Assembly (NCBI GenBank): GCA_018266375.1
Contig: JAFEAO010000008.1
Coordinates: forward strand, 62,001-126,000
DNA from: Bdellovibrionales bacterium
Lineage (GTDB): Bacteria; Bdellovibrionota; UBA1018; CAIMNF01
Direction of reading: 5' to 3'
Length of the DNA: 64,000 nucleotides
Part shown: one piece after another, positions 37,392 to 44,590 of the stretch
How the letters are laid out: each line of letters begins with the position of its first letter
Numbering within the stretch: the first letter of the stretch is position 1
Translations under genes and position numbers: made by a program
Notes under the pieces: model-generated
Database searches by the model: none
What the model was told of the DNA's origin: nothing
Seen by the model: the letters and a program-made list of their open reading frames with translations, nothing else

Positions 37392-38642
37392 TTAGTCCTC
37401 AACCTCGAGGTTCTCTTCGACCTTTTGGTAATCACCCTCGAACTTCATCCGTTCGATCCGATCCAGGTTCATTTGCAAACGCATCATGAAAGAAAGGTAT
37501 GCCGCTTCAGTTTCGATAACGGTCTTCGACGACTCGATCAAATCAATCGCCGGTACAACTTGACCCAGTTTCATTCGCTGGTTCAGCGCATCCATATACT
37601 GCATACCCAGCGCCCTGCGCTTCGTGACGTTTGCAAACGCATCCTTGTCGCTATCGATGTTTTGAATCGTCAATGCAAGTTGGCGCTTCAGGACTTCGGT
37701 CGCTGCTTCTTGTTGAATTGCAATTTGCTCACGCTGGGACTTGACGATTCTCACCGAAGCGCCAATCCCAAAACCCAAGCCTTGCTGGACCGGATATTGA
37801 TCGAATACGCCGCCCATCACTCCGCGAGACAGGCTTGAAACGCCGAGGATGCTGAATTGGACTTCGCGTTTTACGTATCTCGCCGCATCGTAGAGATAAT
37901 CGAACTGCTCAATTTCGGGAGAACGCTCCACTACCAATTTTTCGAGTGCCGAATACAAAAGAGCTGGAATACGGCTCACATCGAGCTCTACCGGCTTTTT
38001 TAGCGATATGTCGTTTTGCGCCGGAATGCCTACCATCAGCGCCAGGGTTTTCTTTTCTTCAAAAGTCAGCTTCTCCAGAGCACGCGCATCTTCGATTAAG
38101 CCGAGGTATCGAATTTCGATGGCCTTACTTGTTCCAACGGGTACCTGCCCGAATTTTTCTTGAAGTTGCGTGTATTCCAAAATACTTTTTGAACTCGTAA
38201 TGCTCGTTTGTATCGCGGCCAGCAAGTTTTCATCCGCAACCGCTTGGAGGAAAATCCCCTTGGCAGTCATGATTTGATTTGCGCGTAAGGATCGCATTCC
38301 TGCGACTTCCGCTTCGTGGAACAGAGCTTGTTGTTTTTTGCGGAACCAGTTAGCCGGAACCAAAAAAGGCACCAGATCTTCGATTAGGCCGACGGCATTC
38401 TGCCAGCCCCCAAATATGCTTAAGACCTTCCAAATGTTCAGTCTCGGGAGCAAGTTCATCCTCGCTACCTGAACCGCTTCCTTGGATTGATACACACGCT
38501 CGGCGTTGGCTTGAACGGTAAAATCAGCCTTCTTGACTTTCGTTGCCACTTCATCGAGAGACAACGTCGTCGTAGCGGCAATTGCTTGAAGCGAAAACGA
38601 AAGCTGCGACAGAACCAAGATCAAAACAATCGTCCTTTTCAT
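37392..38642 (-). CDS. TolC-family outer-membrane protein
   Basis: 416 residues with a signal peptide (MKRTIVLILVLSQLSFSLQA). Long amphipathic helices and repeated OEP-type segments (SLDEVATKVKKADFTVQANA, IDLIESSKTVIETEAAYLSF) identify an outer-membrane efflux channel. It overlaps the lipoprotein gene by ATGA and is the last gene of the RND operon, which already holds a CzcC-like channel. A hydrophobic stretch at about 75-95 (GGWQNAVGLIEDLVPFLVPA) is unusual. It may serve another exporter. Confidence 0.78.
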   Translation of the reverse strand: MKRTIVLILVLSQLSFSLQAIAATTTLSLDEVATKVKKADFTVQANAERVYQSKEAVQVARMNLLPRLNIWKVLSIFGGWQNAVGLIEDLVPFLVPANWFRKKQQALFHEAEVAGMRSLRANQIMTAKGIFLQAVADENLLAAIQTSITSSKSILEYTQLQEKFGQVPVGTSKAIEIRYLGLIEDARALEKLTFEEKKTLALMVGIPAQNDISLKKPVELDVSRIPALLYSALEKLVVERSPEIEQFDYLYDAARYVKREVQFSILGVSSLSRGVMGGVFDQYPVQQGLGFGIGASVRIVKSQREQIAIQQEAATEVLKRQLALTIQNIDSDKDAFANVTKRRALGMQYMDALNQRMKLGQVVPAIDLIESSKTVIETEAAYLSFMMRLQMNLDRIERMKFEGDYQKVEENLEVED

Positions 38643-39283
38643 TGCCCAATCCTTTCAACGCTAAAGCTCATCGAAGTGCCCGCGGTTTTCGGTTGGATTA
38701 TACCATTTAAAATCGAAATCTGCTGAGTTCGGCCCGACATGAGACCGCGAGACAAATCCCGGCTTCGATCCACGATCTCGTTAGTTCTTGAGCTCGGTGA
38801 AATCGTATTATCACCGATCTGAATCAGGAAATATGCACCACACTCGCTCGGCGCGAACTGGATCCGGCCATTTTCGATGTCCGGGTTGATGCCCGATACC
38901 TGACACGCGACATCCGCGATAGCCGATCCTGCGCGAAACAAACCAAGTTGCACGGTGAAAGACAACTTTTCCAGATCGGCCGCCACCTCTTCCTGCATCC
39001 GCACACGGTCAGTTGGAAGAACAACATGATCCGGGATCAAACGAATTTGAAACTTATAGGCTGTGGATTGATCAACTGCCTTTCCTTCATACATTCCGGC
39101 CACACCTTCATAGAAACGATTCCTGCGCGCAAGATCGCGCTCCATCTTTTCTACCAGTCCTGCCTTTGCCTGTTGTTCGGCCTCAAATTGCTTGGTGCTG
39201 ACTTCGGCAATCCGCTCATCGCCCTGACACCCGCTCAGCAACAAACTCACCAATCCCAAACACCCTAATACCATTTTATCCAT
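38639..39283 (-). CDS. Lipoprotein in RND operon
   Basis: 214 residues from the ATG at 39283, which has AAGGAG 6 nt upstream. Lipoprotein signal MDKMVLGCLGLVSLLLSGC (Cys19). A charged helical segment (FEAEQQAKAGLVEKMERDLA) is followed by a probable beta domain (YKFQIRLIPDHVVLPTD). It lies between the CzcA-like pump gene (22 nt gap) and the second TolC gene (ATGA overlap). It may be a periplasmic or outer-membrane accessory of the efflux system; no family recognised. Confidence 0.7.
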   Translation of the reverse strand: MDKMVLGCLGLVSLLLSGCQGDERIAEVSTKQFEAEQQAKAGLVEKMERDLARRNRFYEGVAGMYEGKAVDQSTAYKFQIRLIPDHVVLPTDRVRMQEEVAADLEKLSFTVQLGLFRAGSAIADVACQVSGINPDIENGRIQFAPSECGAYFLIQIGDNTISPSSRTNEIVDRSRDLSRGLMSGRTQQISILNGIIQPKTAGTSMSFSVERIGQ

Positions 39284-39305: not shown

Positions 39306-42300
39306 TCAGTGAGCGACCTTCCCGTCGGCCATCCACTTTTCAAATTTTGCATACATTGCGGGCACCACTAAAAGCGTGAGCATTGTCGAGGATATCACCC
39401 CGCCAATCACGACGGCCGCAAGCGGCCGCTGCACCTCCGCCCCGATCCCCGTCGACAAAACCATTGGCAAGAATCCAAAAATATCCACAAGTGCCGTCAT
39501 GAGCACCGGACGCAAACGAATCAAAGCGCCTTCTTCAATGAGTGCGAGGCCGGACATTCCTTTGGTTGCCCTAAGCTGATTAAAGTAGTTCACCAAGACC
39601 ACGCCGTTCAATACGGCGATCCCGGATAGCGCGATAAATCCAACTCCCGCCGAAATACTGAACGGAAGCCTGAAGATCATCAAACCCATGACTCCACCGA
39701 CAAGTGCTAGCGGGACGCAAACAAAGATCAGCGCGGTCTGCGCCAAGCTTCCGAATGCGATGTAGATCATCGCCAAAACCAATAGCAACGCGATCGGCGT
39801 CAGAATTACGAGTCTGTCTTTAGCTTCTTGGAGGTTCTTGAAGTTACCTCCCCATTGGACGTAGTATCCCTCTGGAACTTTGACTTTACTTGACACAATC
39901 TTCTGAGCTTCTTCAACAAAACTCTCCGTATCCCGACCTCGCAAGTTGATCATCACCGCCGTACGCCGATTCGACTCTTCGCGATTGATCACGCTGAATG
40001 TCTCTTTGAAGCTCACATCCGCGAGATCAGTTAGAGGCGCGGTGCTGCTGCCGGTAACACCGACCGGGAGGCTCCGAATCGCGTCGAGATCAGACCTGAG
40101 CGACTCATCCAGGCGTACCACAATGGGATAACGACGGTCTTTCTCGTAGAGATGACCTACCTCTTCGCCTCCGAGCGCAATGGTAACGGCTTCAAGAACT
40201 TCGCCTTTTTGAATTCCGTAACGGTTTAGGACTTCGGTCTTCGGTTCGATCTTCAAAACTGGTGACTGACCGGCGATATCGAGTTCGACGTCTCCGGCGC
40301 CTTTAACTTCCGAGATCACTTCCTGCATCTCTTTGCCGATTTCAACGAGCTTATTCAAATCAGGGCCAAAGACCTTTACGGTGACATCTGCGCGCGTCCC
40401 CTCCAAAAGCTCATTAAAGCGCATTTGAATCGGCTGAGATGCAAGGAACCTCATTCCCGGAAGCTCTCGCTCCAATCGATCAACGATATCGGCAGTCAGC
40501 TCCTCATACGTTTTCTTACCGAAGAATTTGCCTCCCGGCCATTCCGAGCGAGCCTTCAGCATGATGTAGCAGTCAGCGACGTTGACTCCCATCGGGTCCG
40601 TCGCGATTTCGCTCGTGCCTAAACGCGCAAAAGTAAATTTGACTTCAGGGAAGGACTGAACGACCTCCTCCGCCTTCTTTTGATACTCGATCGCCCGAGT
40701 GAGACTGATGTTTGCCGGCCTGATCATATGGAACGCAAACGACCCTTCGCTCAGTTGCGGCAAGAACTCGCCGCCTAAAAACAGGAACAGAACGATACCC
40801 GCCATGACCGAAGCCAAAGCTCCAAGCAAAGTCTTCTCACGACGCTTGAGCGACCAGTCGAGTAGCTTATGGTATTTGGCGCGAATGGACCGCATGAGCT
40901 TGGGTTCTTTATCTTCGGTGTTACCGCTTAAAAGAACGCTGGCGAGGGCCGGGGCGGTGGTAAACGAAAGCGCGAGAGCCGCGAAGAGCGCGATCACGAA
41001 GGTCGCCGCCATCGGCATGAACATCTTGCCCTCGATTCCGGTGAGCCCAAAGATCGGCAAGAACACCACGATGATGATTAACTCGCCGAATCCCGCCGCG
41101 GTTCTAATTTCAACCGCCGCCGAGCTAATGGTTTCAAGCAACTCGTTCTTCGTGAGGGATTTCCCGGTCGCTTTTACGCGCTCTTCAACCCGCCGCACAC
41201 AGTTGTCGATGACAATGACCACGCCATCCACGATAATACCGAAGTCGAGTGCGCCCAAGCTCATGAGGTTCCCCGAAATGCCTAGCGGCTTCATGATCAA
41301 GAACGTGATTAAAAGCGACAATGGAATCGTAATCGAAGTGATAACCGCTGCCCGGACGTTACCTAAAAGCAACAGCAAGATAACGATCACAAGCGAAGCG
41401 CCCATGACCAAGTTGTGCTCAACGGTACCCAAGGTCGCGTTCACCAAATCCGAGCGGTTGTAGACAGTTGTGGCGATGACCCCTTGCGGGAGACCCTTGG
41501 AGACTTCTTGTAGCTTTTCGTGAATACGAGTCGATACAGCCCGACTGTTTTCACCCACAAGCATCATCACCGTGCCCAAAACCGTCTCGCGACCGTTCAT
41601 GGTGGCGGCACCCGTACGAAGCTCTTTTCCAAGCCCGACGCTGGCGACATCGCCAACGGTGATCGTCCTAAAAGTCTCCAAAGATTTGATCGGGACCTTT
41701 TTGATATCGTCGATACCCTGGAAAAGCCCCACGCCTTGCACTAGAAACTGCTCGGACGTCTGCTCAATATATCCACCACCGACGTTTTGGTTCGCCTTTT
41801 CAAGGGCGTCGATAATGTTACTAAAGTGAAGCGCATAGCGCGCCATTTTTTCAGGATCAGGACGGACGTGGTATTGCTTTTCAAAACCGCCGGTCGTATT
41901 GACTTCAGCGACTCCAGGGACCGTCAAGAGCCGGGGTTTCAGATACCAATCTTGAATCGCGCGAAGCTCGATGAGCTGCTTGAATCTCTCGTCCGGATCG
42001 GCCGCGGGTTTGTCGAAATCGAGAGTATATTGATAGACCTCTCCCAACCCGGTCGAAATCGGGCCGAGCTGCGGTTTTGCATCTTTAGGGAGATCGCTCG
42101 CGATTCGTTGAAGGCGCTCTGAAACCAACTGGCGCATCCGATAGATGTCCGTGTCATCTTCAAACACGATCGTGACCTGAGACAGACCAAAACGCGTAAT
42201 CGACCGCACTTGAGTGACACCGGCAATGCCTCGCATGGACGACTCAACCGGAAAAGTGACCGAACGTTCTATCTCTTCCGGAGCGAGACCTTCAACGGTC

Positions 42301-42458
42301 GTGTTCACCTGCACCTGATTGTTTGTGATGTCGGGTACGGCGTCGATCGGTAGCCGCTGAAATCCGATAAAACCGGCCACTGCAACCGATAAAGTCACCG
42401 CGAGGACGATGTACCGGTGATAGACCGAAAAATGAATGATTTTATTGATGGCGTTCAT
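39306..42458 (-). CDS. Heavy-metal RND efflux pump (CzcA/CusA family)
   Basis: 1050 residues from the ATG at 42458, one base after the adaptor stop. This start gives the standard HME-RND N-terminus INKIIHFSVYHRYIVLAVTL. The TM4 motif LGALDFGIIVDGVVIVIDN, with the proton-relay Asp residues, marks the heavy-metal class. AVPDITNNQVQVNT is the first periplasmic block. It exports divalent or monovalent metal ions (Zn/Co/Cd or Cu/Ag) from the periplasm. The metal cannot be read off safely. Confidence 0.95.
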   Translation of the reverse strand: MNAINKIIHFSVYHRYIVLAVTLSVAVAGFIGFQRLPIDAVPDITNNQVQVNTTVEGLAPEEIERSVTFPVESSMRGIAGVTQVRSITRFGLSQVTIVFEDDTDIYRMRQLVSERLQRIASDLPKDAKPQLGPISTGLGEVYQYTLDFDKPAADPDERFKQLIELRAIQDWYLKPRLLTVPGVAEVNTTGGFEKQYHVRPDPEKMARYALHFSNIIDALEKANQNVGGGYIEQTSEQFLVQGVGLFQGIDDIKKVPIKSLETFRTITVGDVASVGLGKELRTGAATMNGRETVLGTVMMLVGENSRAVSTRIHEKLQEVSKGLPQGVIATTVYNRSDLVNATLGTVEHNLVMGASLVIVILLLLLGNVRAAVITSITIPLSLLITFLIMKPLGISGNLMSLGALDFGIIVDGVVIVIDNCVRRVEERVKATGKSLTKNELLETISSAAVEIRTAAGFGELIIIVVFLPIFGLTGIEGKMFMPMAATFVIALFAALALSFTTAPALASVLLSGNTEDKEPKLMRSIRAKYHKLLDWSLKRREKTLLGALASVMAGIVLFLFLGGEFLPQLSEGSFAFHMIRPANISLTRAIEYQKKAEEVVQSFPEVKFTFARLGTSEIATDPMGVNVADCYIMLKARSEWPGGKFFGKKTYEELTADIVDRLERELPGMRFLASQPIQMRFNELLEGTRADVTVKVFGPDLNKLVEIGKEMQEVISEVKGAGDVELDIAGQSPVLKIEPKTEVLNRYGIQKGEVLEAVTIALGGEEVGHLYEKDRRYPIVVRLDESLRSDLDAIRSLPVGVTGSSTAPLTDLADVSFKETFSVINREESNRRTAVMINLRGRDTESFVEEAQKIVSSKVKVPEGYYVQWGGNFKNLQEAKDRLVILTPIALLLVLAMIYIAFGSLAQTALIFVCVPLALVGGVMGLMIFRLPFSISAGVGFIALSGIAVLNGVVLVNYFNQLRATKGMSGLALIEEGALIRLRPVLMTALVDIFGFLPMVLSTGIGAEVQRPLAAVVIGGVISSTMLTLLVVPAMYAKFEKWMADGKVAH

Positions 42459-42459
42459 G

Positions 42460-42879
42460 CTAGTGGCCATGCCCTTCGTCTTCGCCGTTACTTGCATCCA
42501 TCTCAGCCACTCGCAAGTAACCCGCCCCGGAAACGACGACCTCATCACCGTTGGATAAATGCTCCGCTTTGATCGTCGCCGTATCTTTACCTTTGCTCAC
42601 GACCCGCACGTCTTCGCTCTTAATCTTTCCATTTTTCTGAACGTAAACGCGCACCTCGTCGAGCGTATAAACCAAAGCGCGTTTCGAGATCGACCAAGGT
42701 CCATTGCCCGCAAGCTTTGCGGTTGCGATCTTGAATCGCGCACGGGCTTCCGCGCTCAATTCAAAGCCGTCGTGCTCGTCAAACGACACAATCCCTTTTC
42801 CAATCTTCAAAGGCGCTCCTTCGTCATGGGCGAGCGCGAGAGTCGCCATAAAGACCGCGGCTACCAAAACTGTTCTCAT
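42460..42879 (-). CDS. Miniature RND periplasmic adaptor (CzcB/CusB-like)
   Basis: 139 residues with a signal peptide (MRTVLVAAVFMATLALA). LSAEARARFKIATAKL resembles the lead-in of CzcB/CusB, and VRVYVQKNGKIKSEDVRVV followed by HLSNGDEVVVSGAGYLRVAEM is the membrane-proximal domain. The barrel-sandwich and helical hairpin of a normal 350-450-residue adaptor are missing. The ends are metal-ligand rich (HDEG at the mature start, EDEGHGH at the end). It is intact and in frame between the CzcC and CzcA genes with ATGA/1-nt junctions, so it looks like a genuine short protein. Confidence 0.8.
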   Translation of the reverse strand: MRTVLVAAVFMATLALAHDEGAPLKIGKGIVSFDEHDGFELSAEARARFKIATAKLAGNGPWSISKRALVYTLDEVRVYVQKNGKIKSEDVRVVSKGKDTATIKAEHLSNGDEVVVSGAGYLRVAEMDASNGEDEGHGH

Positions 42880-44114
42880 AGCCTAATCTCCTCGACTCGG
42901 CCTTCATTTTTGTAGATTGACCACAAGGCCTTCATGGCGTTGATCTCGGCCTCATGGCGGGTCCGCTGGAAGTCAATGAGCGATCGATGCGCTTCAATCA
43001 CAAGCGCACTGCTGACCAAACCTCTAAAAAACTGCGCTTCGACCCGGCGGTGTTTCTCATCGAGTTCTTTTTGCGCCGGGATCGCTTCAAGAGTCTTTTT
43101 GAGTTCCGAGTAAAAACGTTTCAGATTCTCGTGGTCCGCACGCACTTTGGCGAGCGAATAGGCGTGTCGCGCTTCGGCACCATTGAGCGCGGAGCTGGCG
43201 GCGGCGACACCGTATCCATTTTGGTTCCAAATCGGAAGCGGAAAATTGATCTGGAACCCGTACCAAGTGTTTTTGAAAGGGCCGTCGGCATCGAATTGCA
43301 CCATCGGTCCGATCGTGATGTCCGAGAAAATTTCTGACTTCTCACCCGCATATCTCGATTGAGCCAGCTCCAATTCACCACGCGAACGAAACACATCGGG
43401 CGAAGTTTCGATTCCGTCGTTGCCGGGCTTCAAGTCCGGAAGCTTAATTGCCGAGGGCGTTTGGATCGCTCGGATTCGATCTTCAGAAAGACCAGATTTG
43501 ATCTTTAGTTCATTAAGGAAGTTTTGTTCGTCCCGATCCAAGGCAATAAGTCTTAGCTGATAATCGCTTTTCGAGAGTTTGAACACCGAAAGCGAAACCT
43601 CTTGCTCGGGAGTCAAACGAGGCCGGGAGGCATACTGCTGAATTAACTTTCCAAAGGTTTCTACGCCCTCCTTTAAAGACTCACGTTCGTTTTTGAGTTG
43701 TGCCAACCGATACAAACCCAGGTAACCCAACTCACGGGATGATTGGAGCGCATCCAGGTAATCGGCTTCGGCGGTAGACTGGGACGCCTGCGCCCCTAAC
43801 CTGCGATACTCGCGCTTTGCACCGAATTCGATCGGCTGCAAAAGCGCAAACTGAAGCTGATAGGTTTGGTTTCCCTGATTCTTGGTGAACAACGACTGAT
43901 TATTGATCCCGGGATTGAGCCAGCGTTTGGACGCGGCGACGGCGTTTTCGGCTGATTCAAGATCTTTTCTGGCCTTCATTAAATCCGGCGACCGACTCTC
44001 AATGCATGCGGCAAAGTCAGATGCGGTTTGAACCGATCCGCAAGGCGCAACATCGTCGGCCGACGACTCACTTGAAAAGCAAAGCTGAAGGGCAATTGCA
44101 ACTACGACTAACAT
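42876..44114 (-). CDS. CzcC-like outer-membrane efflux protein
   Basis: 412 residues with a signal sequence (MLVVVAIALQLCFSSESSA). SPDLMKARKDLESAENAVAA and the repeated second half (SPDVFRSRGELELAQSRYAG) are the two OEP repeats of CzcC/CusC. AAGGAG is 7 nt before the ATG. It would dock on the CzcA-adaptor complex and carry metal out across the outer membrane. Its 3' end overlaps the adaptor gene (ATGA). Confidence 0.88.
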   Translation of the reverse strand: MLVVVAIALQLCFSSESSADDVAPCGSVQTASDFAACIESRSPDLMKARKDLESAENAVAASKRWLNPGINNQSLFTKNQGNQTYQLQFALLQPIEFGAKREYRRLGAQASQSTAEADYLDALQSSRELGYLGLYRLAQLKNERESLKEGVETFGKLIQQYASRPRLTPEQEVSLSVFKLSKSDYQLRLIALDRDEQNFLNELKIKSGLSEDRIRAIQTPSAIKLPDLKPGNDGIETSPDVFRSRGELELAQSRYAGEKSEIFSDITIGPMVQFDADGPFKNTWYGFQINFPLPIWNQNGYGVAAASSALNGAEARHAYSLAKVRADHENLKRFYSELKKTLEAIPAQKELDEKHRRVEAQFFRGLVSSALVIEAHRSLIDFQRTRHEAEINAMKALWSIYKNEGRVEEIRL

Positions 44115-44164: not shown

Positions 44165-44503
44165 TTAGGCGGCAGGAGGACGAGGAATGGATTCGAGATG
44201 GACGGAAACAAGATCATGCCCAGCATTCACTTCAATAATCGCGATCGACTGAAGCGCCTCAATCGTTACTTGAGTGGACAGGGTAAAATGACAAGCTACC
44301 GGATTACAGTGAACGTGCTCCGACGGGACTGAATCCGACTTTGAGGCAGGCTGAACGTGGTCATCTTGACAATACCCGATACTCGAATGCCGGGCTGATA
44401 AATCGGATTCGGCACAATGACTGACGGTCGATCCGAACGCCGTAGGACCAGCGACGAACGCGAAGAAAGCAACAAATAGAGCAATCTTTTTAAGCGCAGT
44501 CAT
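44165..44503 (-). CDS. Cys/His-rich exported protein (putative metal binder)
   Basis: 112 residues from the ATG at 44503 (a GTG one codon earlier is possible). Signal peptide KKIALFVAFFAFVAGPTAFG. The mature domain holds HCAE, YCQDDH, EHVHCNPVACH, a compact set of Cys and His typical of periplasmic metal-binding or sensing proteins placed before czc/cnr operons. It is the first gene of the RND operon, 50 nt before czcC. No known family named. Confidence 0.65.
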   Translation of the reverse strand: MTALKKIALFVAFFAFVAGPTAFGSTVSHCAESDLSARHSSIGYCQDDHVQPASKSDSVPSEHVHCNPVACHFTLSTQVTIEALQSIAIIEVNAGHDLVSVHLESIPRPPAA

Positions 44504-44590
44504 CACTAACGCGTACCATCTAAACTTTATGCACTCAAGCGAATTCCAAATAGAACCCAGCTAAACAAGAGTAACCTCAGAGGTTTGGAC

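Follow-up and report, generated by a model that had tools for sequence, protein, structure and literature searches.

A Phylum-Wide Family of Adaptors Predicted to Consist of the Membrane-Proximal Domain Only in CzcA Metal Pump Operons of Bdellovibrionota

The heavy-metal RND operon of a Bdellovibrionales bacterium carries, between the genes of the CzcC-like channel and the CzcA-like permease, a short gene whose product, as judged from its structural model, is a stand-alone membrane-proximal (MP) domain of a CzcB/CusB-type adaptor. This MP-only adaptor represents a phylum-wide family and not a local oddity. The favored reading, to which a probability of about 0.55 was assigned, is that the short gene encodes a conserved, working MP domain seated on CzcA, which would sense or load metal and activate the pump and would not bridge to CzcC.

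Results

Operon Structure

The analyzed stretch of DNA, here called the window, comprises 64,000 nt of contig JAFEAO010000008.1 (positions 62,001–126,000) of the Bdellovibrionales bacterium assembly GCA_018266375.1. On its minus strand, the genes of a small Cys/His-containing protein, czcC, the short adaptor, czcA, the lipoprotein F4 and the TolC-like protein F5 lie in a row (Table 1). From czcC to F5, consecutive genes first overlap by ATGA, then are spaced by 1 nt and 22 nt, and finally overlap by ATGA again. The start codon of czcA was set at ATG 42458, 1 nt past the stop codon of the short adaptor gene; the alternative version of 1080 aa begins at an upstream GTG, and the 1050-aa version was used. 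A preliminary description of this DNA had reported clean junctions and a clean frame of the short gene as well as intact neighboring genes. The former were confirmed from the ORF coordinates (ATGA and 1 nt), and the latter by profile matches, which for CzcA covered TIGR00914 over its full length. ZneA and CusA are the nearest solved structures to this CzcA. As in a CzcCBA operon, the adaptor gene thus lies between the genes of the channel and of a CusA/CzcA-family permease, and it encodes the MP domain only. The small protein preceding czcC, which we take to be CzcI-like by position, fell outside family F3 in the clustering; similar-looking small proteins of F3 precede czcC in many of the 37 loci compared.

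Table 1. Features of the metal pump operon in the window.
Feature	Position	Strand	Remarks
TolC-family-like protein F5	37392..38642	(-)	416 aa; ATGA overlap with F4
Lipoprotein F4	38639..39283	(-)	22 nt past czcA; no Pfam family
CzcA-like heavy-metal RND permease	39306..42458	(-)	1050 aa; TIGR00914, 1235 bits
MP-only adaptor (mini-CzcB; predicted)	42460..42879	(-)	139 aa; ATG start; clean frame
Approximate splice point, residues 56–61 of the short adaptor	42697..42714	(-)	expected site of the barrel, lipoyl and hairpin domains in ordinary adaptors; from the adaptor alignment and the CusB structural alignment
CzcC-like outer-membrane channel	42876..44114	(-)	412 aa; Pfam OEP, 1.5e-20
Small Cys/His-containing protein, signal-like start	44165..44506	(-)	no Pfam match

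Domain Content and Predicted Fold of the Short Adaptor

The 139-aa protein comprises a signal helix (residues 1–17), a lead-in (about 28–55), the MP domain (about 62–117) and a C-terminal helix followed by the His tail GHGH. It matched no Pfam family. Its residues 63–123 matched positions 254–314 of the 322 positions of RND_mfp (TIGR01730) with an E-value of 1.1e-6, and the score of 27.8 bits lay below the curated whole-protein cut-off of 94.9 bits. When aligned with ten larger adaptors, the lead-in and the C-terminal MP part found counterparts, while the barrel, lipoyl and hairpin domains that characterize RND_mfp adaptors were all missing.

The AlphaFold model, computed with 58 relatives in the alignment, reached a pLDDT of 89. 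It shows the MP fold, with chain 3ne5_C of CusB from the CusBA complex as its best structural match (Z 11.6, rmsd 2.1, 95 residues), followed by ZneB (Z 10.3) and BesA (Z 9.1). Foldseek assigned a probability of 1.00 to adaptor chains, at a modest best E-value of 2.0e-3. Since residues 36–131 of the model pair with CusB residues 79–396, about 220 residues of CusB are without counterpart, and because the structural alignment skips them, the model pairs with the two terminal portions of CusB, which jointly build the MP domain. Searching the PDB by sequence with the single short protein returned an unrelated repeat protein as the sole match, and the family profile gave weak matches only, SilB and 4l8j among them (E 0.35–0.41). 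The model and the alignment with the CzcB/CusB families, which the preliminary description had called for, thus agree with its account of an adaptor with a signal peptide that has kept the lead-in and MP parts only and is devoid of barrel and hairpin.

Distribution and Evolution of the Short Adaptor

In a search with the single protein, homologues were found in 120 of 368 Bdellovibrionota genomes at E <= 0.01. The matches cover the lead-in and the MP domain with no gap that could accommodate a barrel, and none of their open frames exceeds 290 codons between stops. Among the homologues listed, 131 of 150 lie directly beside a listed czcA. Neighborhoods were inspected in stretches of 8–19 kb around 36 relative loci and the window (n = 37); a czcC homologue was found in 35 of them, and the order czcC, short adaptor, czcA is kept in nearly all. 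This architecture is conserved in many Bdellovibrionota families, including the complete genome of Bdellovibrio sp. qaytius. Common to the family are a signal peptide, a variable linker that is often rich in His, Glu and Asp, the lead-in and the MP domain. A C-terminal His motif is usual: among 74 distinct short adaptors, HxH forms the C-terminus of 58, and 67 carry a His within their last four residues.

Whole-gene synonymous change was unsaturated, and thus dS measurable, in three of ten pairs, for which dN/dS of the short gene amounted to 0.04–0.12. The dN of the short gene was 2–5 times higher than that of czcA. Over 50 loci, distances of short adaptor and CzcA correlated with r 0.91, a value reached in none of 500 permutations and to which shared ancestry contributes; for CzcA and CzcC, r was 0.71.

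A scan of contigs with two narrow peptide patterns yielded 28 loci, all with record titles from Bdellovibrionota except one titled Streptomyces griseus and one titled only bacterium. Since just these two patterns were used, the 28 loci leave room for members of the family in other groups. The title Streptomyces griseus (L101, contig CALQIT020000006.1) looks wrong. A plasmid search with the short adaptor of a relative gave no match.

CzcA Homologues and Pumps without an Adaptor

CzcA was matched at E <= 1e-260 in 128 of 368 genomes, and 150 homologues from 120 genomes were listed. Directly upstream of 139 of these lies a short adaptor, namely the 131 listed ones and eight that were missed or unlisted in the single-protein search (L117–L123, L132). 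Orthologous short adaptors in related genomes, which the preliminary description had proposed to look for, are therefore common. Four of the 150 czcA genes (in G167, G258, G126 and G190) were judged from their coordinates alone to be cut by contig ends, and none of the 146 with a readable upstream side is preceded by a longer adaptor. Finding one at this place in close relatives would have pointed to a recent deletion. Within the genus, close czcA homologues occur in two of 12 genomes, that of the window and G315 (czcA identity 66%), and both have the short adaptor.

One further listed czcA (L116, genome G268) has neither a channel nor an adaptor gene upstream. The remaining six (L124–L129) lack an adaptor, czcC and czcA being spaced by 0–13 nt (genomes G098, G093, G103, G101, G104 and G090). 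No adaptor-like gene was found in the stretches around these six czcC-czcA pairs. A profile search for the short adaptor found none in the genomes G098, G103 and G093 and only weak matches, above E 0.03, in G101 and G104; the match in G090 belongs to a second operon. Most of the six genomes are incomplete drafts (81–92% complete). That six relatives do without the short adaptor argues against its being indispensable to this kind of pump.

CzcA Phylogeny and Graded Reduction of Adaptors

A CzcA tree of 86 sequences was computed by a quick method; it contains some long branches and has no inferred root. A branch with a support of 100 sets apart 70 sequences, which comprise 63 with a short adaptor, the six without an adaptor and L116. 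The six form one group adjoining the short-adaptor sequence L123. The near outgroup of the 70 consists of seven plasmid-borne CzcA with larger adaptors; these have a hairpin in Thauera and Pseudomonas and none in Legionella, Novosphingobium, Xanthomonas and Asticcacaulis. The proteobacterial relatives retain larger adaptors, several of which are already hairpin-less. Barrel and MP domain only are present in a CusB-like adaptor of the window genome and in one adaptor of G143. Across relatives, the adaptors therefore make up a stepwise series that runs from full through hairpin-less, barrel-plus-MP and MP-only forms to none. From the order on the tree, we infer that the direction of this series was loss.

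Several observations were made alongside. Contig C2 of the window genome encodes a second metal pump, whose 343-aa CusB-like adaptor (L065:8050-9078, minus strand) is the one mentioned above; it consists of a heavy-metal-binding domain, barrel and MP domain, without lipoyl domain or hairpin. On contig C7 of the same genome, a channel-RND gene pair has no adaptor gene in between (L130:240-4716, plus strand), and a lone 292-aa HlyD-type adaptor gene (L064:8833-9708, minus strand) lies a few kb away. In G043, an adaptor-like gene of 219 aa (L160:1486-2142, minus strand) is located between TolC-like and RND-like genes, so named from their starts, and is possibly another reduced adaptor.

Compensating growth of CzcA or CzcC was considered and rejected. 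Between the CzcA of 63 short-adaptor and six adaptor-less pumps and those of six pumps with larger adaptors, only indels of 4 residues or fewer were seen, a comparison that covered 75 of the 86 tree sequences and left out 11 (distant permeases, L116 and the shortened L139). The lengths of CzcC are ordinary.

Discussion

The MP-only fold, the phylum-wide pairing with czcA, the single CzcA clade and the co-divergence with CzcA together tilt the balance, by a little, towards an activator on the permease. The short protein would descend from a CzcB that was stripped of its barrel, lipoyl and hairpin domains, leaving a free-standing MP domain. It would be exported, presumably to the periplasm, and may dock on the porter domain of CzcA, where its His-rich ends could sense or load metal and turn CzcA on. 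Such a role is modeled on the termini of CusB: the N- and C-termini of CusB contact the CusA cleft (PMC6975555), and the N-terminal piece 1–61 is competent for pump activation (PMC6235853). Since the short protein keeps the ends equivalent to those of CusB and drops the bridge, a role in activation and metal loading on CzcA is suggested. His-rich linkers and tails are present in larger adaptors too, as the alignment with ten of them showed, and hence do not prove a switch role. Because the short protein would be unable to reach CzcC, metal would be handed over from CzcA by direct or loose docking, and since neither CzcA nor CzcC carries a compensating extension, it is the channel that would have to dock in this manner. 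In one sub-clade, the activator switch would have been lost as well.

Alternatively, a full-length adaptor encoded elsewhere might link CzcA to CzcC, with the short protein as an accessory. The preliminary description had raised this option, and other adaptors do exist: each of the genomes surveyed for adaptors has at least one besides the short adaptor, and that of the window has three, an EmrA-like one by an MFS transporter, the lone 292-aa one and the CusB-like one by its own CusA. The sharing of AcrA and AcrE between RND pumps (PMC6975555) provides a precedent. Nevertheless, little speaks for such a role in trans. The CusB-like candidate is itself without lipoyl and hairpin domains, a second MP domain would probably compete for the one site on CzcA, and the only full adaptors in the 37 neighborhoods are three that accompany a second permease of their own. 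The two other adaptors of G175 have an MFS transporter and a MacB-type ABC transporter as neighbors. Where the surroundings of full adaptors in G154 and G134 were examined, these adjoin MFS, ABC or FtsX-type proteins; beside a further adaptor match, G134 C1:2535770, no transporter was seen, and the match G154 C1:3181414 lies outside this comparison. Judging from these neighbors, sharing in trans is possible, but these three genomes offer no RND-type candidate. A full adaptor acting in trans is thus less likely than an activator on CzcA, and we consider it improbable. An adaptor divided into two genes, the second of them close by, was rejected, as no second piece occurs in the neighborhoods apart from the adaptors that accompany a second permease of their own. 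Only slightly less credible than an adaptor in trans is the option that the short protein moves freely in the periplasm as a metallochaperone or sensor, with a role like that of CusF, instead of remaining on CzcA. The short protein is small, with a signal peptide, a His tail and often a His-rich linker, and a solved look-alike is available in the SilB construct 5a4g, which combines an N-terminal metal site with an MP domain. However, it retains the fold by which CusB binds the permease, a fold that a stand-alone chaperone need not keep, and the short gene tracks the evolution of czcA.

It is quite unlikely that F4 and F5 stand in for the missing bridge. They follow czcA in the window at operon-like spacing, and the F5 model has TolC-like helices, with low confidence in the two regions expected to hold beta-barrel strands. 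Yet F4 is near the short-adaptor operon in just 14 of 37 loci and F5 in 11, a count that leaves out three other TolC-like proteins clustering with F5; neither is near many others, such as L074, L076, L043 and L075. Homologues of F5 occur in 103 of 368 Bdellovibrionota genomes at E <= 1e-12, some of which, such as G288, lack this czcA. Being optional, F4 and F5 were not counted as the missing bridge. A recent deletion, a pseudogene or an assembly error, for which the short length alone speaks, has next to no probability. The architecture recurs in many families, the measurable pairs indicate purifying selection, and recent decay was rejected on the grounds of the relatives in 120 genomes and of the readable listed czcA loci, none of which has a longer adaptor. 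The preliminary description had likewise doubted that the gene was a deletion wreck.

With CzcB, CusB and ZneB the short protein shares the signal peptide, the lead-in strand, the MP domain, the His-rich ends and the location between czcC and czcA; unlike them, it has no barrel, lipoyl or hairpin domain. BesA from Borrelia burgdorferi (PDB 4KKS-4KKU; PMC3807786) is a hairpin-less adaptor of a working RND pump, but BesA retains the lipoyl and barrel domains, whereas the short adaptor retains the MP domain alone. The same two domains are kept in the hairpin-less adaptors of the Legionella, Xanthomonas, Novosphingobium and Asticcacaulis plasmid homologues, close relatives by their CzcA, which are of the IhpB type (NF045680), measure 310–418 aa and do not reach the cut-off of NF045680. 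In its domain content, 5a4g comes very close to the short adaptor, but it is an engineered fragment and not a natural gene. In the accessible text of a literature search on MP-only or truncated adaptors and on Bdellovibrio czc pumps, with most subscription journals outside its scope, no MP-only adaptor was described. New in comparison with BesA is that the lipoyl and barrel domains are gone too, and then the entire adaptor. The earlier notion of an unusual pump therefore stands, extended by a phylum-wide family and by six related pumps without any adaptor.

These pumps bear on an old dispute, i.e., whether a tripartite pump requires its adaptor as a sealed bridge or chiefly for activating the permease. 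The hairpin-less BesA has already been cited against strict tip-to-tip models (PMC4446572). In the Bdellovibrionota, the two jobs of the adaptor seem to be separated in nature, with the permease-touching domain kept and the bridging domains gone, and close relatives are without both. Metal pumps with a full, hairpin-less, barrel-plus-MP or MP-only adaptor and those without any are now open to direct comparison. It is put forward tentatively, at somewhat less than even odds, that this RND clade has pump and channel cooperating without a bridge, first with a bare MP activator and then, in the czcC-czcA sub-clade, as a two-gene system with direct docking. Found in relatives of predatory bacteria, the short-adaptor and adaptor-less pumps challenge the need for a bridge to the outer membrane.
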